The notes beneath the pieces are model-generated. The model was not told the origin of the DNA. It saw only the letters and a program-made list of their open reading frames with translations, and did not search any database. Positions 50,235 to 64,000 of a DNA stretch of 64,000 nt are shown here, one piece after another. Each line of letters starts with the position of its first letter. The stretch's first letter is position 1. Both the position numbers and the translations under genes were made by a program. This DNA is from Pseudomonadota bacterium (GTDB lineage Bacteria > Pseudomonadota > Alphaproteobacteria > Rhizobiales > JAKPQE01), in contig JAKPQE010000036.1 of NCBI GenBank assembly GCA_029572955.1, positions 1 to 64,000 of the forward strand, written 5' to 3'.

Positions 50235-50561
50235 CTACGCGGCTTCGCCGGCAGTCCTGTCGATGGTCTGCACCGTCTCGAATCCTTCGAAGACCGGATG
50301 GCCGAGCGTCATCGGTTCGGATCGGCCGGCATTGGCCGCGGAATGAGACTTGCGGAAGGCCTCGGACTCGGTCCAGTCGAGGAAATCGGTCTCGGTCGCC
50401 CAGAAGGTGTGCGAGGAATAGAGGATGTGATCCTCGCGCTCCGGACCCTTGAGCAGGCGGAACTCGATGAAGCCCGGCATGGTCGGCAGATCGCTCTGGC
50501 GGCCGAGCCAGACTGCCTCGAAAGCTTCGGCCTTGTCCTTTTTCACCTGGAAACGGTTCAT
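50235..50561 (-). CDS. Antibiotic biosynthesis monooxygenase-fold (ABM) protein, candidate IsdG-like heme monooxygenase
   Basis: MNRFQVKKDKAEAFEAVWLGRQSDLPTMPGFIEFRLLKGPEREDHILYSSHTFWATETDFLDWTESEAFRKSH; adjacent to hutX/hutW. Confidence 0.8.
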   Translation of the reverse strand: MNRFQVKKDKAEAFEAVWLGRQSDLPTMPGFIEFRLLKGPEREDHILYSSHTFWATETDFLDWTESEAFRKSHSAANAGRSEPMTLGHPVFEGFETVQTIDRTAGEAA

Positions 50562-50606
50562 TGCAAGATACACGGGTTTTCTCCCCTCGTTGGAATGGGT
50601 CACGGC

Positions 50607-51116
50607 TCAGTGGGCGGCCATGCGGGCACGCAGCGCCAGGTAATGCTCGATCTGCTCGGGGATGAGCTCGCGGTTCTCGCCACGTCCGAGATAGATCTTG
50701 AACATGCAGCCGCCGTCGCGGTTGTAGAACTGCACCGAATGGGTATCGCTCGAAAACAGCTTGCGCGAGACGAAGGCGATCGAGGCGCAATTGTCCGCCT
50801 TGAGGTGGCCGCCGATGGGCTTGCCGTGGAGATTGTAGAACCCGCGACCCATGCTGCCCTGCGGCACCGTTCCCTTGGCCTCGAGAATGACGTCGGGGGT
50901 ATTGACGAGGAACGTGACCTCGCCCCAGCCCGCGATAGCTGTCATGACGTCCTCGAAGCGGCTGCCCGAGATGGTCAGTGCCTCGCCGGCAGGCAGGCAG
51001 GCAACCACGTCGGCGGTGCTGACGCCATGGCGGGCGGCGATCTCCTCGAGAACGGCGCCCGGCGCCGCGGCTAGCGAGGCAGTGACTGCCTTCCGGGTTT
51101 GCACGGACAATGTCAT
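50607..51116 (-). CDS. hutX: Heme utilization cytosolic carrier protein HutX
   Basis: VLEEIAARHGVSTADVVACLPAGEA... GEVTFLVNTPDVILEAKGTVPQGSMGRGFYNLHGKPIGGHLKADNCASIAFVSRKLFSSDTHSVQFYN. Confidence 0.92.
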   Translation of the reverse strand: MTLSVQTRKAVTASLAAAPGAVLEEIAARHGVSTADVVACLPAGEALTISGSRFEDVMTAIAGWGEVTFLVNTPDVILEAKGTVPQGSMGRGFYNLHGKPIGGHLKADNCASIAFVSRKLFSSDTHSVQFYNRDGGCMFKIYLGRGENRELIPEQIEHYLALRARMAAH

Positions 51117-52537
51117 ACGGTCTCTCCTGTGGGTTTTGCCGTCGATAGGGTTCGGGCCGACGGAATGCCGGCGTCGATGTTGTGGTTGATCCATTCGATG
51201 AGGCGCTGGGTCATCGAGACCTGCCAGAAGCGGCCGGCGAGCGTCAGTTCGAGCCAGCCGTCGGACAGGCGCAGGAGACCGGCTCGGCGCCATTGCTCGA
51301 GCAGGGGCTGGATGGCGGCACCGATCGTCGCGCCGCCGATCTCGGCCAAGGCCGCGGTCGCCTGAGCGATGTCGAGCCGGCCGCTCTCCATGCCGCCCTT
51401 GATCGCATTGAGCAGGGTATGGTGCGGGGCCTGCGCCATGATGTGGGTGACCGGCGCCTCGCCGGCGGCGACGGTCGCGAGGTAGCGGCCGAGGTCGCGG
51501 TCCACCCGGTACGAGCGGCCGTCGAGAAAGCCGCCGGCCCCGGACCCGAAGGCAAGGCACGACGCCCCGGTCTTGACGAGCAGATTGTAGAGGTTCCGTT
51601 CGCGGGTCGTCCGGCGCCAGTGGCTGGTGGAAATGCCCTCCCACCGGTGCGCCGCCAGAACCTGTGAGCCGCGTTCGAAATAGCTGCCGAGACGGCCCGG
51701 CTCGACCGGTCGCGAGAACTTGCCGCGTTCCAGCGCCGGGATCAGCGGCGTGCCGGGGATGAGGTTGAGGGAATAGAGGTCGAGACCGTCGATCCCGGTC
51801 GCGGCGGCCATGCGGATATCCGCCTCGAGGTCGTCGAGCGACTGCTCCGGCAGGCCGTAGATGAGGTCGATGACGATCGCGGCCCGATCCCCGGCGACGA
51901 GACGCTCGAGAAACGAGACGATCTCGCGCCGCCCGGCCTTGCGGCCGAGCCGCCGACGCAGGCGTTCGTCGAAGGATTGCACGCCGATCGAGAACCGGTT
52001 GACCCCGGCGCCGAGACAGGCGGCCACCTTGTCGTCATCGAAGCCGTGGACCCGGCCCTCGACGGTGATCTCGCAGTCGCCGGCGAGCGGCAGGTATCTT
52101 GTCGCCGCCTCGATCATGCGGGCAAGGTCGCGCCCGGCAAGGGCGCTCGGCGTGCCGCCGCCGAAATAGACGGCGTGGACCGGACCGCTCGCCTGGCAGG
52201 GCGCATCGCGGTCACGCGCGAGATCGGCGACGACGGCGTCGGCATAGGCCGGGCCGTCGGAAGCGCGCCAGGGGTTCTGGTAGAAGCCGCAGAAAAGACA
52301 GTGATTTTCGCAGAACGGTACGTGGACGTAGGCAACGCTCTTGCCGTCACGCCGCGCCGTGCGCATCGCTGCCCATGTCGCGGGCCGGTCGCCGTCCGGA
52401 ACCGGACGCATGCCGAGGAACGGATGAACGGCGCGCTTGCCGGCGAACGCACCGGCAAGCGGGTCGTCGGTCTCGGTCGCGAAATAGGCCTCGATCGAGG
52501 CCGCTCCCGCCTCGTCGGTCCGACGCGCCTGATGCAT
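51113..52537 (-). CDS. hutW: Heme anaerobic degradation radical SAM methyltransferase ChuW/HutW
   Basis: YVHVPFCENHCLFCGFYQNPW (CxxxCxxC), VYFGGGTPSAL, NRFSIGVQSFDERLRRRLGRKAGR, C-terminal SMTQRLIEWI; 4-nt overlap with hutX. Confidence 0.92.
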   Translation of the reverse strand: MHQARRTDEAGAASIEAYFATETDDPLAGAFAGKRAVHPFLGMRPVPDGDRPATWAAMRTARRDGKSVAYVHVPFCENHCLFCGFYQNPWRASDGPAYADAVVADLARDRDAPCQASGPVHAVYFGGGTPSALAGRDLARMIEAATRYLPLAGDCEITVEGRVHGFDDDKVAACLGAGVNRFSIGVQSFDERLRRRLGRKAGRREIVSFLERLVAGDRAAIVIDLIYGLPEQSLDDLEADIRMAAATGIDGLDLYSLNLIPGTPLIPALERGKFSRPVEPGRLGSYFERGSQVLAAHRWEGISTSHWRRTTRERNLYNLLVKTGASCLAFGSGAGGFLDGRSYRVDRDLGRYLATVAAGEAPVTHIMAQAPHHTLLNAIKGGMESGRLDIAQATAALAEIGGATIGAAIQPLLEQWRRAGLLRLSDGWLELTLAGRFWQVSMTQRLIEWINHNIDAGIPSARTLSTAKPTGETV

Positions 52538-52605
52538 GGCATGCCCCTCCTTCTCGACGCGCGATGCGGCAAGGCGGCCGGGATTTTTCCGGCCGCCGCT
52601 CCGCG

Positions 52606-54720
52606 TCAGTTCAGCTTGATCGTCGCCCGGACCTCGAGGCTGCGGCCTTCGCCGGGCAGTTCGTCGAGGGTCGGCCGATACGAGGCGTCGGTGAGGTTGT
52701 TGAGGCTGATCGACAGGCCGTACTTGTCGTTTTCGCCGGCACTGGCACCGAGGGCGAGATTGAGGGTCGCCCAACTGCCTTCCGAGGTCGTCACGCCGGC
52801 GGCGCTGGTGAACCTCGACGCGGAGCCGGCCCGCACGAAGAGATCGGCCCAACCGCGGACCCGGTCGCGATAGGTCCAATCGTACCTGGCGCCGACCCGA
52901 CCCGAGTATTCCGGCACGTCGGTATTGTAGGTCGAGAAGTTGGTGTACTCGAACTTGCGGCGCGTCCAGTTGCCGTTGACGTAAGGCGTGACGTTCCAGC
53001 CCTCGAAGGTGTATTCGGCAAGGATCTCGATGCCGTAGGTCGTCGCCTTGTTGATGTTCTCCCAGCGCTCGGTATAGGTCGCCGGGCAGGTCGTGCAGGT
53101 CGTCGAGTCGATATAGTCCTCGGCGAGCGTGTAGTAGCCGGTGACGTCGAGGACGGCACGGCCGTTGTCATAGCGCGCGCCGATCTCGAAATTGTCGGAA
53201 GTCTCGGGCCTCAGATCCGGATTGGCGTAGATGTTGGTGCCGCCGGCCGATGTCGGCACGAAGAGCTGCAGCAGCGTCGGGTAGACGTAGCCTTGCGAGA
53301 AATGGGCGCGCAGCAGCGTGTCGGCGATGCCGGAATAGGTCACACCGACGCTGCCGAGGATGCGGTCGTCCTTGCCGCCTGCGAAGTTGAACCGGTTCGA
53401 GGCCTGCAGCTCCGATTCGATGTTGTAGTAACGGACGCCGGCGGTGAGCTTCAGGTAATCGGTGATCGACCATTCGTCCTGCACGAAAGCGGAGAAGGTG
53501 CGAACCTCGGCTTCGTCGTAGGTGCGGCTGGCGATCGGAATGACGATCGGCGGGAATGCCGGCCGGATCGAGCCCCAGGTGTTGCCGACCTTGGTCAGCG
53601 AGTCGCTGAGATACTGGACGCCGGTCACCACGTAGTGGCTGGGCAAGGGCTGCAGATCGACCTGCAGCGTGCCGCCCACATCGGTGATGAGGTCGTCGCT
53701 GAGGACGTGAATGTCCGAGACCGTGCCGGTGCGCGACCTGCTGTTCACTTCGTTGAGGAACAGGCGGCTGATCGTCTGGTGATAGGCGTCGAAATGAATG
53801 CGCCGGACGACCGGTCCGAGGTCGGTGGCGTCATAGCTCAGCGCGAACTTCTGGAGATCTCGCTCCGGCAGGTCGACATTGAAGCTGTTGGTGGTGCTGC
53901 CGTCGGACTGCGGGCCGAGATATGACGGATCGATCCAGGTCGAGGATTCCAGCTTGTACTCCTCGGCCTTGAGCGCGATGTAGTGATTGTCGTCCGCGCC
54001 GAAGCGGAAACCGAGATGGCCGGAGAGCGTGTCCGTCTCGTAGGCGGAGTTCGAGAGCTTGCCGCTCGGGTCGTAGCGGGTGCCGGCGACGTCGCGGTCA
54101 CGATGCTCGGCAAACGCGCCGGCGATGCGGTAGTCGACGTTCTCCACCTTGCCGAGAACCATCCCCGAGAGATGATAACCCTCGGTCGCCGAGAAATAGG
54201 AGGCCGAGGTCTCGGCCTCGATCATCTTCTCGCCGCCCTTGCGGGTGATGATGTTGACGACACCGCCGATCGCCTTGGAGCCGTAAAGGACGGAGGCCGG
54301 GCCGCGAATGACGTCGATGCGCTCGACGATGCTCGGGTCGATGAGAATCGGCGTGCCGTAGGTGCTGTGGTCGGTAATCTCCTGGCCGTCGACGAGGATC
54401 GTCACGCGGCGCGAGGACTCACCGCGAATTCTGACCCGCTTCATTCCGGCCACCGAGGCATCGACGACGTCGACGCCCGGCACGTCGCGCAGCATTTCGG
54501 CGATGCTCTCCGGGGCCTTGCGATCCAGCTCGGCACGATCCACCACCGAAACCGAATTCGGGCTCTCGAAGACCGGCTTTTCGGTCCGCGTGCCGGTAAT
54601 GTTGATGATACCGAGATACGAGCTGTCGCTTTCCTGGGCCAGAGCCGATGTTGCGGCCGGCAGCGAAGCCGGCACCGCAAGGGCCAGCAGTCCTGCTCCG
54701 ATACACAAATGTCGAGACAT
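52606..54720 (-). CDS. TonB-dependent outer-membrane receptor (putative heme/hemoglobin type)
   Basis: Plug ESIAEMLRDVPGVDVVDASVAGMKRVRIRGESSRRVTILVDGQEI... VERIDVIRGPASVLYGSKAIGGVVNIITRKGG; NPDLRPETSDNFEIGARYD; terminal LN. Confidence 0.9.
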   Translation of the reverse strand: MSRHLCIGAGLLALAVPASLPAATSALAQESDSSYLGIINITGTRTEKPVFESPNSVSVVDRAELDRKAPESIAEMLRDVPGVDVVDASVAGMKRVRIRGESSRRVTILVDGQEITDHSTYGTPILIDPSIVERIDVIRGPASVLYGSKAIGGVVNIITRKGGEKMIEAETSASYFSATEGYHLSGMVLGKVENVDYRIAGAFAEHRDRDVAGTRYDPSGKLSNSAYETDTLSGHLGFRFGADDNHYIALKAEEYKLESSTWIDPSYLGPQSDGSTTNSFNVDLPERDLQKFALSYDATDLGPVVRRIHFDAYHQTISRLFLNEVNSRSRTGTVSDIHVLSDDLITDVGGTLQVDLQPLPSHYVVTGVQYLSDSLTKVGNTWGSIRPAFPPIVIPIASRTYDEAEVRTFSAFVQDEWSITDYLKLTAGVRYYNIESELQASNRFNFAGGKDDRILGSVGVTYSGIADTLLRAHFSQGYVYPTLLQLFVPTSAGGTNIYANPDLRPETSDNFEIGARYDNGRAVLDVTGYYTLAEDYIDSTTCTTCPATYTERWENINKATTYGIEILAEYTFEGWNVTPYVNGNWTRRKFEYTNFSTYNTDVPEYSGRVGARYDWTYRDRVRGWADLFVRAGSASRFTSAAGVTTSEGSWATLNLALGASAGENDKYGLSISLNNLTDASYRPTLDELPGEGRSLEVRATIKLN

Positions 54721-55172
54721 GACGCGTCCTGTCGTTCGTTTGTTTGGGACATCCCGGCCGAGGCGTCCGGCCTATGCCGGCAGCAGCCCTAGATGCGAAT
54801 GCGTTGCATTTTCTAACCGTCGCGATCGGTCAAGTTAACTGAATAATCCGCAATACTATTTTCAAATGCGGCCGCAATAACCGCCCACCACTTATTCGAT
54901 AATTCAGAATTATATTCTTCTTCCGAATTCATTTCGCCCAATCCAAAATATCAAGATAATAAAATTCATGTCATGCGGCAGCACGTGTCGCACATTATGG
55001 GTTTACCGCACGAAACAAACCTGGATACTCTCTGTCGAATACGCTCGGAAGCAACGCTGCAGCAGCTCACGGCAAGTCGGCAGGATTGCCGCCCGCGACA
55101 CCGTTCGCGCGTGTGCCGGGGTTGCGCGGCAGCACTGCATCCGGGTTTTCGGAGGATGAGGAGCGATACCTG

Positions 55173-58121: not shown

Positions 58122-58967
58122 TTATTTGAATTCAACGCGCGTAGTAAAAGACATGCTTTTCTTGGATGCCCCGGCGGGGATGGCCGGAAAAGGCGAGGCG
58201 CGACGAACCATGGCGGTCGCTTCCGCATCGAGCGGCGGGTGCCCCGATGCCTTGGCGAGGCGCACCGACAGAACCCGGCCGGCATTGTCGATGGAAAAGG
58301 CGACGAGCACCGAGCCCCGCAGGCGTGCGCGGCGCGCCTCGGCGGGATAGCGTTTGTGTCGCGCCAGATGAGCCAGCACGCGGCCCTTGTAGTTGCCGAG
58401 CGCGGCGCCCGAAATTGCCGCCGGTCGCTGCGACTTGCCGGCAGCCGAGCCGCCGCCGCCGGCAGGCGTTGCGGGGACGACCGGTGACGGCTTTGCCGGA
58501 GCGGCGGCACGCGGCTGGGGACTTGCCGGCGCTTTCTTCTTTCGCGGGGTCTGCTTCTGGCGTTCGGGGGAAGCCTGCGGGCGAACGGCCGGCTCTTGCC
58601 GTACCGGCTCGACCACCGCCGCGACCTCCTCGGGCGGCGCGACATCCTCGGTCGGCGGGGGCACGGGTTCGACGGCTTCGGCGGCGAGTTCCCCGGCATC
58701 GGCCGGGGCGGCGGTGTCCACGACCTGCGGGGCGGCGACCGGCTCGGCCGGTGCCACGGCTTCGACCGCCTCGATCACCGGCGATACCTCGGTCGCCGCG
58801 CCGAAGAGTTCGGCGAGATCGACGAGGTCGGTGACGGCGAGATCCAGTCCGCCGGCGGGCGGCAGGGCCTCCGGCTCTCTGCCAAGGCCGAGCGCCATTG
58901 CCGCCGCGCCGTGAAGCAGCAGCGCGGCCAGCGCGGCCATGCACCACTGAGCCGGCGAAAACTTCAT
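58122..58967 (-). CDS. tonB: Energy transducer TonB
   Basis: N-terminal TM, Pro/Glu-rich spacer, C-terminal YKGRVLAHLARHKRYPAEARRARLRGSVLVAFSIDNAGRVLSVRLAKASGHPPLDAEATAMVRRASPFPAIP. Confidence 0.93.
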   Translation of the reverse strand: MKFSPAQWCMAALAALLLHGAAAMALGLGREPEALPPAGGLDLAVTDLVDLAELFGAATEVSPVIEAVEAVAPAEPVAAPQVVDTAAPADAGELAAEAVEPVPPPTEDVAPPEEVAAVVEPVRQEPAVRPQASPERQKQTPRKKKAPASPQPRAAAPAKPSPVVPATPAGGGGSAAGKSQRPAAISGAALGNYKGRVLAHLARHKRYPAEARRARLRGSVLVAFSIDNAGRVLSVRLAKASGHPPLDAEATAMVRRASPFPAIPAGASKKSMSFTTRVEFK

Positions 58968-59368
58968 GCACCCGCCTCGTGGATCGTCACCAGGCGAATG
59001 TCGCGTATTCCGGCCGCCCCGAGGGACTCGACGATCTGCAACATCAGGCCGGCCGGAAGCCGGCGATCGGCAACGATGTGCAGCGTCTGGGGGGCGGAGC
59101 CGGCCAAGGCGCCGAGATGCCCGGCCAGCCTGTCCAGGCCGACGACCGCGCCGGACACCCTGATGGTGCCGTCGAGAGCGACGACGATCGGGTTCGCCGG
59201 GTCGCCCCCCGCCTCGATGCTGCTGGTCGCCGCCGGCTCCACGCCATGGGTCGCGAACGGTCGCAACGCACCGGCAACGAGGAAGAAGATCAAAAGCAGA
59301 AAGACGACATTGATCAGCGGAACGAGGTTTTCCTCGCGAACGGGGGCAATCCTGGTGCAAACGCGCAT
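58964..59368 (-). CDS. exbD: Biopolymer transport protein ExbD (copy A)
   Basis: LVPLINVVFLLLIFFLVAGALRP; ... RRLPAGLMLQIVESLGAAGIRDIRLVT. Confidence 0.9.
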   Translation of the reverse strand: MRVCTRIAPVREENLVPLINVVFLLLIFFLVAGALRPFATHGVEPAATSSIEAGGDPANPIVVALDGTIRVSGAVVGLDRLAGHLGALAGSAPQTLHIVADRRLPAGLMLQIVESLGAAGIRDIRLVTIHEAGA

Positions 59369-59381
59369 GGCATCCCTCCGG

Positions 59382-59765
59382 CTATTTCACGACGACGACA
59401 TTGCGAATGCCGGCCCGGCGCGCCGCCTCGAGGGCCCGCACGACATGATCGAGAGCGGTTTCGGTGCGCGGCAGCACGGCGAGCCGAACCGCTTGGCCGG
59501 CGGCGATGGCGACGAGCCTTTCGACGAGCTCGTCCGCTCCGACGGGCCCGCCCGCAAGGTCGAAACCGCCGTCCTCGGCAATCCGTAACAGCAGCACGTC
59601 GTGACCTGCCGCAGCACTTCCCGCGGCGCCGCCATCCATCTCGAGACTGCGATATCGCTCGAAGGTCGATGACAGCATGAAGAAAAGCAGCAGCAGAAAC
59701 ACGACGTCGATAAGCGGGGTCAGGCTGAGCCGACGAATGCGCCGGCGCTCGGCTTCAACCCGCAT
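59382..59765 (-). CDS. exbD: Biopolymer transport protein ExbD (copy B)
   Basis: RRLSLTPLIDVVFLLLLFFMLSSTFERYRSLEMD. Confidence 0.9.
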   Translation of the reverse strand: MRVEAERRRIRRLSLTPLIDVVFLLLLFFMLSSTFERYRSLEMDGGAAGSAAAGHDVLLLRIAEDGGFDLAGGPVGADELVERLVAIAAGQAVRLAVLPRTETALDHVVRALEAARRAGIRNVVVVK

Positions 59766-60567
59766 GTCGCATCACCGCATGGGCGGGCCGAAGCGACTGC
59801 CGGTCGCCGACCCAGTCCTCGTTGCCGGTGTCTTCGGTCAGCCGGCCGGTGAAGAGGCTGGTCAGCACGTCCTCCATCCACATACGCTCGCGCTCGACGA
59901 TGCTCTCCAGCCAGTAGAGGGCAAGGCCCGAGGGGATCGCGATCGAAAGGCCGATGGCCGTGGTCAGCAGGGCTTCCCAGATGCCGCCCGCCAGGATCGC
60001 CGGATTGACGTCGGCGCCGGCATCCTGCAGGGCCTGGAACGCCTGGATCATGCCGAGGACCGTGCCGAGAAGGCCGAGCAGCGGCGCCGTCTGCACGACG
60101 GCCTCGATCGCCCGGAAATAGGAGCGCAGGACGCCGAGCCCGTGCACCGAAACGCGCTCCACATCCTCGCGGATGCTCTGGTCGTCGACGGGCCGGTGGC
60201 GCAGGCCGCGCATCGCATGGCCGAGGGCCAGCTCGACCGGATTTCGCCGCCGGCGGATCGCCTCGTAGGCCCCCTTGTGGTCGCCGGCCAACCAAAGCTC
60301 GATCGCGCGCCGCGCCCGGCCGTGACGACCGACGCCGAGGCGCGCGTATTGCCAGAGCTTGAGCAGGATGACCGCGGTCACGAACAGCGAAAGGGCGACC
60401 AGAAGAGCGACGACCGGCCCGCCCTTGAGCAGGATGTCGACGGTAGCGCCGATCTGGTCCAGTGTCGCGGCCTCGATCGCATCGGCCGCCGGGACGGGAT
60501 CCGCCGCCATTGCGGGTATGGTCGGGACGTTTGCCGCGATCGGCGCGACGCTGCTGACAGGCTGCAT
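59755..60567 (-). CDS. exbB: MotA/TolQ/ExbB proton channel family protein
   Basis: LRSYFRAIEAVVQTAPLLGLLGTVLGMIQAFQALQDAGADVNPAILAGGIWEALLTTAIGLSIAIPSGLALYWLE. Confidence 0.93.
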   Translation of the reverse strand: MQPVSSVAPIAANVPTIPAMAADPVPAADAIEAATLDQIGATVDILLKGGPVVALLVALSLFVTAVILLKLWQYARLGVGRHGRARRAIELWLAGDHKGAYEAIRRRRNPVELALGHAMRGLRHRPVDDQSIREDVERVSVHGLGVLRSYFRAIEAVVQTAPLLGLLGTVLGMIQAFQALQDAGADVNPAILAGGIWEALLTTAIGLSIAIPSGLALYWLESIVERERMWMEDVLTSLFTGRLTEDTGNEDWVGDRQSLRPAHAVMRHAG

Positions 60568-60621: not shown

Positions 60622-61104
60622 TCACGACCCGAAAGGCGTCCCGGCCCGGCTGGTCGTCGCCAGCGCCCCGAGGCAGGTTGCCGGTGCCAGCCCCTCGCCT
60701 TCGCAGCGGGTGACGTCGTTGACGAGAAGACGGCCGATGGTCGCGCAGTCACGATCCTTGAGATCGAACTGGCGGACGCGGGTCGCTCCAGCGGGCAGAT
60801 GTCCACCCTTCACCACGAGGATGCGGTCGACGCGCCGGTCGTCGGCGAACACGACGAGTTCCAGCGCCAGATCCGCAATGTCCGTGCCGATGCCGTTGTG
60901 GAGGACAATGCTCAACCGGCAGTCCGGGCCCTTTTGCAGCAGGTCGTTGAGCTCCAGGCCCAGACGCGCATCGCTGCCGGCCGGCTTTTCGGCGGCTTGC
61001 GAAAACGCTGCCCCGGCATTGGCCAGACCGAGGAAGGCCATGACGATCGCGTGGAGGATGAGACCGAAACCGCCCCTTCGAACAGCGATACCAAAGCGGT
61101 CCAT
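60622..61104 (-). CDS. Hypothetical exported protein heading the exbB/tonB operon
   Basis: Hydrophobic N-terminus ILHAIVMAFLGLANAGAAFSQA; single intact ORF directly upstream of exbB on same strand. Confidence 0.7.
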   Translation of the reverse strand: MDRFGIAVRRGGFGLILHAIVMAFLGLANAGAAFSQAAEKPAGSDARLGLELNDLLQKGPDCRLSIVLHNGIGTDIADLALELVVFADDRRVDRILVVKGGHLPAGATRVRQFDLKDRDCATIGRLLVNDVTRCEGEGLAPATCLGALATTSRAGTPFGS

Positions 61105-61272: not shown

Positions 61273-61291
61273 ATTGCGAGGCATTCGCAAT
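61273..61291. promoter_or_regulatory. 19-bp palindrome upstream of the 61310 ORF
   Basis: attgcga-ggcat-tcgcaat, perfect 7-bp arms, 18 nt before the ATG. Confidence 0.45.
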
Positions 61292-61309: not shown

Positions 61310-61873
61310 ATGCACGGGCCTGGAGACATCGTATCGGATCATCGCCGGCACGGGGACGAGAGGGCTTGCGGACAGGAAGCCGGGTTCGACGGGCGGGCGG
61401 AACGTCTGGTCGGCGACGCGATCCGGTGCTGGCTGGAGGGATACGAGACAGGCAACATCAATTCCTGGGAAAAGGGATGGCGCCTGTTCTCGCTCGATCT
61501 CGGCTCGGAACGGGCGCGCTCCGTCGTCACCGAGCTTGCCTGCTGGGTTCGCGCGGTCACCTCGATCGCGGCTCGACGGGTCGAATATCGGTCGAGCCGT
61601 GACGAGGCGCGCGGCTTCTGCGCCGACGAGATGCTCGCCATCAGGATGATCGCCGCGGGCCAGCACAACGCCATCGGGACGATGCGCCGGTGCGGCCGCT
61701 ACCTCACCGGTGTCACGGACACTTCGTCCATCGAGGTCGCCACGCGGCGGTTGGCCGGAGCGCTCGATGCCGCCGGCGTGCATCTGCGGCCGGAACAGAT
61801 CCAGTGCCACGTCAATTGCGCGAATGCCGGCATGCCCCAGACGGCAGGCAGCAGCTCTTGGAGATCGAGATGA
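61310..61873 (+). CDS. Uncharacterised 187-aa protein upstream of the DUF2325-type gene
   Basis: MHGPGDIVSDHRRHGDERACGQEAGFDGRAERLVGDAIRCWLEGYETGNINSWEKGWRLFSLDLGSERARSVVTELACWVRAVTSIA; upstream aagag. Confidence 0.65.
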   Translation: MHGPGDIVSDHRRHGDERACGQEAGFDGRAERLVGDAIRCWLEGYETGNINSWEKGWRLFSLDLGSERARSVVTELACWVRAVTSIAARRVEYRSSRDEARGFCADEMLAIRMIAAGQHNAIGTMRRCGRYLTGVTDTSSIEVATRRLAGALDAAGVHLRPEQIQCHVNCANAGMPQTAGSSSWRSR

Positions 61874-62021: not shown

Positions 62022-62872
62022 ATGTGCGTGCTGTCCAACTGCCCACACGACGAGGGGCGACGCCGCAACCTCCGGCGCTCTCGCCTCGCCGACATTCCGA
62101 GCTCGTTCCACTGCTCGATCGTGGGGACCTGCATCGCGCTGGCGGAACTGATGAAGCTCGCCACCAAGGCCGGCCTGTCGATACCCTCCGATCTCAGCAA
62201 CTATCAGGTCCATGTCGTCTTCGTGCAGGCGGCCGGCCGCGCCGGCGGCCTCGAGCGCCTGATGAGCAAGGCTCTCGACCGCAAGCATCACATCGCGATC
62301 GAGAAGACCAGGGCGCTGACCACCTCGGCCGAACTGCGCGCCTTCTGGTCCTCGGCGATGAAGGCCGGCAATGTCGCAGGCCCCTACTGGGCATTGATGA
62401 GCCATGCCCAGGCCAATGACGAGCTCAGAAGCGAGATGTTCGGCGACGTCCATATGCTGTCTCACCTCGTCGGCTCGGCGAACCGGGCCGACCTTCAGCG
62501 TCTGGAAGCGCTCTCGGTCGAAAACCGTCAGATCGGCGACAAGCTCGCGGAACAGCGGGCCCGCGCCGCAGGGCTGGCCGCGGACCTGCGCAAACGCATC
62601 TGCGAACTGGAGCAGCAGTTCGCCGAGGCCAATATCCGCAACCGGCTCGCCACCATCGCGACCACCGATCCGATGCAGGCGCCGCGGGCCGACCTGTCGT
62701 CGCGCGTCCGGGATCTGCAGGAAGACATGGCCCGGCGGGACGCCCGAATTGCCGGTCTCGAGGAGCGGCTGGCCGAGGCAGAGAAGCGGATGGAACGCGC
62801 CTTGGAGGAACGCGACACTCTCGAGGACCTGCTCGAGCGTCGTTTGACGCTGCCGGCCGACCGGGAGCTGAC
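62022..62872 (+). pseudogene. N-terminal part of a DUF2325-type gene, interrupted by an IS30 element
   Basis: MCVLSNCPHDEGRRRNLRRSRLADIPSSFHCSIVGTCIALAELMKLATKAGL...coiled-coil; reading frame resumes at 63895 after the element. Confidence 0.75.
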
Positions 62873-63894
62873 TTCACAAACGAAGTGCAACACCCTGCTA
62901 AGGTGTTGCCGCTATGGGACAAAGGTACGGACAGCTCTCGCTTGAAGAGAGGATTTCGATTGCCCGGTTCCGGGACGAAGGTCGGTCGCTCCGGCAAATC
63001 GCTGCAAGTCTGGATCGCGCGCCATCGACGATCTCGCGGGAACTGAGGCGCAACAGCGGTCGCCAGATCGGCTACCGCGCCGGGCACGCGCAGGAGCGCG
63101 CCTGGGCTCGGCGCTGGCGTGGCAGCAAGCTGGCGCGCCAACCGCCGCTCGGTCAGGCTGTCATCGACCGGCTTGCTATGGGATGGTCGCCGCAGCAGAT
63201 CGCAGGCCGGTTGGCGCTGGAGCACGGTAGCACGGTCGTCAGCTACGAGACCATCTACCGCTTCATCTACGCCCAGATCCGCCGCACCAAGGACTACGGC
63301 TGGCGCCTTCTACTGCCGCGCGGCAAGGCCAAGCGAAGGCCACGCCGCAGTTCGCGTGGCCGTCTCGCCATGATGCCGGGCGGCATCCCCATCGCTCGCC
63401 GGCCGGCTCACATCCTGCAACGCAAGCAAGCCGGCCACTGGGAAGCGGACCTGCTGCATCCCGCCAAGTCCGGTCCGGCCATCCTCGTCGCTCAGGAGCG
63501 CCAGACCCGCTTCACCTTCATGGCCAAGGTGCCGGGCAAGCGGGCAAGTCCAATCGTCGATGTCCTGGCAGACTGGTTTGCCGCCCTGCCAGCCCAGATC
63601 AGGCGATCCGTCACCCAGGACAACGGCACCGAGTTCCGCCTGCTGCATCACCTCGCGCCGCTCGGCATCAAGACCTATTTCTGCGATGCCCACAGCCCTT
63701 GGCAAAAGGGCGGCGTCGAGAACATGAACGGCCGCATCCGCCGGTTCATTCCAAGAGGAACCGACCCGGCCTCCATCACCGAGGACGATGTCCGCCTCCT
63801 CGCCGCCATCCTCAACTCCACACCGCGAAAAATCCTCGGATACCGAACCCCTCAGGAGCTATTCTCCAAGAAACTGTTGCACTTCAAATGTGAA
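62873..63894 (+). mobile_element. IS30-family insertion sequence (about 1022 bp)
   Basis: Terminal inverted repeats ttcacaaacgaagtgcaac (62873-62891) and complement of ttcacatttgaagtgcaac (63876-63894), 16/19 identical, enclosing an IS30-type transposase. Confidence 0.88.
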
Positions 63895-64000
63895 TCCACC
63901 GGATCCGGTCGAGCGGGACGACGACCCTCCCTCCTCGCTCTTTCTGGCGGGCGCCAGCATCGTTTATGTCGGTGGCCGGCCGGCGCAGGTGGGGCGCCTT
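62914..64000 (+). CDS. IS30-family transposase; ORF stays open past the right inverted repeat and off the window edge
   Basis: MGQRYGQLSLEERISIARFRDEGRSLRQIAASLDRAPSTISRELRRNSG; DDE blocks HWEADLLH, TQDNGTEF, SPWQKGGVENMNGRIRRFIPRGTD; ends ...GYRTPQELFSKKLLHFKCE then flanking DNA. Confidence 0.9.
   Translation, partial: MGQRYGQLSLEERISIARFRDEGRSLRQIAASLDRAPSTISRELRRNSGRQIGYRAGHAQERAWARRWRGSKLARQPPLGQAVIDRLAMGWSPQQIAGRLALEHGSTVVSYETIYRFIYAQIRRTKDYGWRLLLPRGKAKRRPRRSSRGRLAMMPGGIPIARRPAHILQRKQAGHWEADLLHPAKSGPAILVAQERQTRFTFMAKVPGKRASPIVDVLADWFAALPAQIRRSVTQDNGTEFRLLHHLAPLGIKTYFCDAHSPWQKGGVENMNGRIRRFIPRGTDPASITEDDVRLLAAILNSTPRKILGYRTPQELFSKKLLHFKCESTGSGRAGRRPSLLALSGGRQHRLCRWPAGAGGAP
63895..64000 (+). 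pseudogene. Resumed 3' portion of the interrupted DUF2325-type gene (continues past window)
   Basis: Frame reads PPDPVERDDDPPSSLFLAGASIVYVGGRPAQVGRL; VYVGGRP-x-QVxRL is the DUF2325 opening motif. Confidence 0.72.

Follow-up and report, generated by a model that had tools for sequence, protein, structure and literature searches.

A recently active IS30-family element has transposed into the only DUF2325 gene of an alphaproteobacterial genome and very probably inactivated it. The gene belongs to a subfamily linked with iron and heme, for which an accessory role in heme-iron use is proposed, and we regard this explanation as a whole as probable. The window, that is, the whole stretch of 64,000 bp analyzed here, corresponds to positions 1–64000 of contig C40 in a draft genome of 3.76 Mb and 182 contigs. 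Since C40 runs on to 95437, the stretch beyond the window end could also be read. The strain of the window is a natural mutant in which the remaining heme genes of the locus are still open, and the locus offers a functional lead for the widespread DUF2325 family through the gene order with hmuQ, iron-type operator boxes, and a division of genomic contexts between iron and molybdenum.

Interruption of the DUF2325 gene

The 5′ part of the gene (62022–62866, plus strand) encodes a conserved helical N-domain and a coiled coil, and now reads into the element, as the initial annotation had described; the resulting frame has 308 aa. The 3′ part starts at 63904 on the plus strand, passes the window end at 64000, and continues to 64273 of C40. 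An out-of-frame DUF2325 part had been proposed to follow the right repeat of the element; the part is present, but its domain is at C40:63956–64234, mostly outside the window. The identity of this half, named beforehand as a point on which the interpretation could fail, is supported by a match to PF10087 (79.9 bits against a cut-off of 33.6, E = 1.6e-22). When the empty site is reconstructed with a single GGA, the halves join as ...LPADR-DPVERDDD... in one 404-aa protein. The splice proposed earlier restored the right frame but retained five surplus codons (ELTPP), which are the tips of the element.

The claim that an IS30 element broke an intact gene holds, since homologues join both halves. 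The intact homologue in a same-family genome (G001) is 45% identical across residues 16–393, and many other relatives also have both halves in one gene. The interrupted gene is the genome's only DUF2325 copy.

The position of the other element copies should be noted here. All of them break off at contig ends, which is expected, since the assembler could not cross an identical repeat; the interior of the element in C40 is the consensus of a repeat. A repeat so hard for the assembler could in principle have joined two unrelated stretches through the multicopy element. The same GGA duplication on both flanks, together with the full-length alignment of both halves to single genes in relatives, makes such an artifact highly improbable.

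Ends, transposase, and copies of the element

The element, a 1034-bp IS30-family insertion sequence, occupies 62867–63900 on the plus strand. Comparison of the ends gives a left terminal inverted repeat at 62867–62892 (plus strand) and an imperfect right one at 63875–63900 (minus strand), each of 26 nt, with 20 of the 26 positions paired. The target duplication GGA is found at 62864–62866 and 63901–63903. A search of the same genome found other left ends on C101, C170, and C66, and other right ends on C60, C170, and C164. The limits were placed at 62867 and 63900 because GCTGAC...TCCACC is common to all end copies although their flanks differ. The limits of the initial annotation, 62873–63894, were discarded: its assignment to IS30 and its restored frame were right, whereas its ends were 6 bp short on each side, as the six other end copies have these bases in common. 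The compared ends are 100% identical. At the other insertion sites, the target duplication is TTC, also of 3 bp, in place of GGA.

The transposase ORF on the plus strand runs without an internal stop from 62914 through 64000 to C40:64044 (376 aa). It matches NF033563 with 242 bits against a cut-off of 80 (E = 8.8e-72) and possesses the DDE triad (residues 179, 236, and 269) with D(33)E spacing. The inverted repeats and the target duplication are within the ranges of the IS30 family (20–30 bp and 2–3 bp, respectively). Among the matches listed, annotated plasmid-borne transposases are at most 44% identical to this protein, and a DNA-level search of plasmids found no relatives of the element. 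The transposition event itself is an ordinary, routine one. On C170 (L012, whole at 7997 bp), copies of the element are found at both ends in the same orientation, an arrangement that could be composite or merely two neighboring insertions.

Target choice and the stop codon of the transposase

The other copies occupy one arm of GGATTCCCGCnnnnGCGGGAATGACG, and every end recovered has the same placement and direction within it. About 13 further sites of the GGATTCCCGCnnnnGCGGGAATGACG type are found elsewhere in the genome at up to three mismatches, against 0 for the control; this dRS3-like repeat is scattered over C66, C132, C136, C31, C102, C129, C101, and C117. The repeat is the usual target of the element, and the copy in the DUF2325 gene is off-target. 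The insertion site in the gene contains a 7-bp palindrome, as do 1.7% of random sites, and it partly matches the repeat with a score reached by 0.4% of random sites, both being modest, post hoc observations.

The stop codon of the transposase is supplied by the TGA of GGGAATGACG in the target repeat (all three right ends; loci L010, L012, and L013), whereas in the DUF2325-gene copy the frame extends 47 codons beyond the element end. E. coli IS30 and Neisseria IS1655 have the transposase family, DDE residues, terminal repeats, and a small duplication in common with this element. The duplication, however, is 2 bp for IS30 and 3 bp here, and unlike these relatives the element lacks a stop codon of its own, which is normally provided by the target repeat. 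IS30 prefers nearly palindromic hot spots and makes small duplications (PMC9333248). Neisserial dRS3 (PMC3898611) is likewise described by ATTCCC(N8)GGGAAT, which GGATTCCCGCnnnnGCGGGAATGACG fits, but it numbers almost 700 in the meningococcus compared with the about 13 free sites here. The documented user of dRS3 as a target is a filamentous phage, whereas for IS1655 there is only a partial association with repeats of the REP type (PMC3898611).

Heme/TonB locus around the gene

The heme/TonB module reported to adjoin the gene is present, with a hemin-type receptor, HutW, HutX, HmuQ, TonB, two ExbD, and ExbB. All of these genes are on the minus strand. The TonB-dependent receptor (52606–54720) has the hemin receptor family TIGR01785 as its best match, below the cut-off of that family. 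HutW, a radical SAM heme-degradation enzyme, is encoded at 51113–52879 (TIGR04107, 527.7 bits against a cut-off of 400, ORF residues 144–564), and HutX is found within the ORF at 50607–51644 (TIGR04108, E = 1.5e-58, ORF residues 187–338). The heme-degrading protein HmuQ is at 50235–50603 (NF053649, 140.3 bits against a cut-off of 130). The genes tonB, exbD, exbD, and exbB occupy 58122–60567. A 160-aa gene at 60622–61104, also on the minus strand, is homologous (37% identity across 132 aa) to the one that lies upstream of tonB in the hemin locus of S. meliloti.

On the plus strand, a gene for a 185-aa protein (61316–61873) lies directly upstream of the DUF2325 gene, which is thus the second gene of a candidate operon divergent from exbB-exbD-exbD-tonB. 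This partner has no match in Pfam and NCBIfam. It is linked to DUF2325 in L024/L043, L025/L113, L027, L101, and L118, with a weaker link in L170, L172, and L196; it recurs beside iron-side DUF2325 genes as a second uncharacterized gene of the candidate operon. A LysR regulator gene lies beyond the DUF2325 gene. Downstream of it, genes that look phage-like by eye from their translations (L008:5900–9987) include an endolysin-like one of 228 aa and a tail-fiber-like ORF of 778 aa.

A Fur-like palindromic box, TGCGAGGCATTCGCAA, is located at 61275–61290 (plus strand), upstream of the partner/DUF2325 pair. A second copy is at 54793–54808 (minus strand), upstream of the TonB receptor gene, and a third at 65423, ahead of the LysR gene. 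When at most one mismatch is allowed, the box TGCRARNCATTCGCAW is found at five sites genome-wide, and the heme locus contains three of these; the reversed control gives 0. The pair of the G001 homologue is also preceded by this box, and Irr-type elements (TTAGAA-N3-TTCTAA and similar) are located ahead of the pair in L025 and L027. Irr boxes have a known role in alphaproteobacteria (PMC3413700), and from this role and the form of the boxes we infer that they are Fur and Irr sites. The DUF2325 gene and the heme/TonB module turned out to be more than adjacent: they have an operator-like box in common, and the subfamily is recurrently linked to iron and heme genes.

Domain organization of long-form DUF2325 proteins

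The interrupted gene encodes a long-form DUF2325 protein. An all-helical N-domain with invariant Cys and His residues is followed by a long coiled coil and, at the C-terminus, by the Rossmann-like DUF2325 domain, which carries the HHDGG and CPxxCxxH motifs. In an AlphaFold prediction based on the G001 homologue and 23 relatives, the helical N-domain is confident, the coiled coil spans about 148–307, a linker of low confidence follows at 307–324, and the Rossmann-like C-domain lies at about 326–430. The N-domain predicted alone has a pLDDT of 94.6. In comparison with PDB structures, the N-domain model has no match (best E = 3.8), the whole model has nothing below E = 0.001, and the C-domain resembles receiver/Rossmann folds only. 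Sequence matches to the PDB were dismissed as coiled-coil noise. Since neither domain is well matched in the PDB, heme or metal binding is suggested by the type of residues and the genomic context only.

The insertion point is predicted to fall within the flexible linker between the coiled coil and the DUF2325 domain. Natural stand-alone DUF2325 domains of about 125 aa exist, and the 3′ fragment retains the entire domain, so partial function is possible. The gene could accordingly have been split without loss, if the coiled-coil half and a stand-alone domain, started within the element at GTG 63890 near its right end or deeper inside at ATG 63788, were both made. The location of the cut in a low-confidence linker, the 3′ frame open from 63788, and the natural short forms of 124–125 aa in rhizobial hemin loci are consistent with such a split. 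However, the sequence upstream of GTG 63890 contains no clear ribosome-binding site, any outward promoter is putative, and the short forms are different genes found in different genomes. We therefore consider it quite unlikely that both halves are made, and the inactivation of the gene is preferred.

Genomic context of the family

DUF2325 genes are found in only 8 of 385 genomes in a wider sample of the class. In a first sample of 95 loci, recurring neighbors were clustered without prior choice and then named by Pfam. One set of neighbors comprises imelysin, di-heme peroxidase (DHOR), DUF1513, ABM/HmuQ, and TonB/ExbBD, and the other ModA, ModE-like HTH, MoeA-like Glp, and DUF2478. A tree of 93 long-form proteins separates the two sets. 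The 41 rows of the iron side include 20 with iron neighbors only (the window's gene among them), none with molybdenum neighbors only, and one with both; the 52 rows of the molybdenum side include 35, 0 and 1 with molybdenum only, iron only, and both, respectively. One change of context suffices on this tree, so that the division, however many rows it contains, is a single observation in evolutionary terms. The window's gene is placed on the iron side by nested sets with SH-aLRT values of 95–99, and it stays there on an enlarged tree.

The second sample consisted of 40 further loci of the same order and class, of which eight near-copies were set aside. Its CPxxC rows have 12 iron contexts, 6 of neither class, and 0 molybdenum, and its FPxxC rows have 1, 11, and 2, respectively. 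Once the long forms of this sample are added, the enlarged tree of 118 rows still requires only a single change each in context and in residue 351 (own numbering), but its F side then includes two rows with an iron context. In the first sample, residue 351 is Cys in 37 of the 41 iron-side rows and Phe in all 52 molybdenum-side rows. The residue was dropped as a candidate metal switch because Phe occurs with iron neighbors (L189) and with exact boxes (L189 and L208); its use is now limited to marking the split.

Upstream Fur/Irr-like boxes, scored with patterns derived in part from the very loci examined, are found in 18 of 40 iron-side loci and 2 of 52 other-side loci in the first sample (p = 3e-6; shuffles gave 0.6 and 0). 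The second sample (6 of 18 and 2 of 14, p = 0.41, not significant) repeats this enrichment in direction only.

Gene order gives a more direct link to heme. An hmuQ-like gene directly follows DUF2325 on the same strand, at a distance of 48–349 bp, in 13 loci, of which seven have a long form and six a short form: L026, L028, L039, L092, and L110 in the first sample, and L174, L175, L178, L179, L185, L191, L201, and L204 in the second. NCBIfam confirmed HmuQ in the two examples checked (L110 and L092). Of the iron-side loci, 6 of 40 have an HmuQ-like gene in the vicinity, compared with 0 of 52 on the other side (p = 0.005). According to Puri and O'Brian (2006), as cited in PMC12279742, HmuQ enzymes degrade heme.

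The long form might also be unrelated to metals, its neighbors reflecting accessory, plasmid-rich regions that came to be shared through chance or common descent. That 36 of the 93 loci have neither class of neighbor, and that the context split happened once in history, would fit this explanation. However, the direct order with hmuQ recurs in several families, the TonB/ExbBD, imelysin, DHOR, and DUF1513 neighbors recur, and boxes lie upstream; an absence of any relation to metals is thus unlikely. We favor a relation to iron and heme for the window's gene. A broader proposal, which we advance tentatively and at less than even confidence, is that long-form DUF2325 is a metal-cofactor family with a PDB-unmatched N-domain that split early into an iron/heme branch (CPxDC, Fur/Irr, HmuQ) and a molybdenum branch (FPxDC, modABC, ModE-like, MoeA-like Glp); the window's gene would then be a natural knockout of the iron branch.

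Long-form genes of Methylobacterium, Rhizobium, and others (L034, L036, L080, L103, and similar) are located beside modABC, ModE-like HTH, Glp, DUF2478, or NifQ. A link to molybdenum is absent from the small literature that mentions DUF2325.

Possible role of the intact protein and short forms in other bacteria

A Fur-type repressor would act at the box common to the genes of the locus, judging from the form of the box. The intact protein may oligomerize in the cytosol through its coiled coil and bind heme or iron at its Cys/His sites, and it may assist the release of heme iron by HmuQ/HutW or sense its outcome. Considering the context and the residue type, this functional step is possible rather than probable. 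In the window's strain, the heme uptake genes would stay open while the accessory step would be lost or reduced.

C. jejuni provides a related case. Its DUF2325 gene cj1384c is upstream of katA and near a heme-trafficking gene, bears a motif for repression by Fur (PMC9426514, PMC4491227), and is upregulated 352-fold under violet-blue light (PMC4491227, PMC9426514). Cj1384c is likewise a DUF2325 protein, iron- and peroxide-regulated and encoded beside catalase and heme trafficking, but it is the domain alone (104 aa), with neither N-domain nor coiled coil. In the S. meliloti hemin locus, a short DUF2325 gene is flanked by tonB on one side and by an HmuQ-like ABM gene on the other, and the 160-aa neighbor is common to this locus and that of the window, but the S. 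meliloti protein (137 aa) is also the domain alone.
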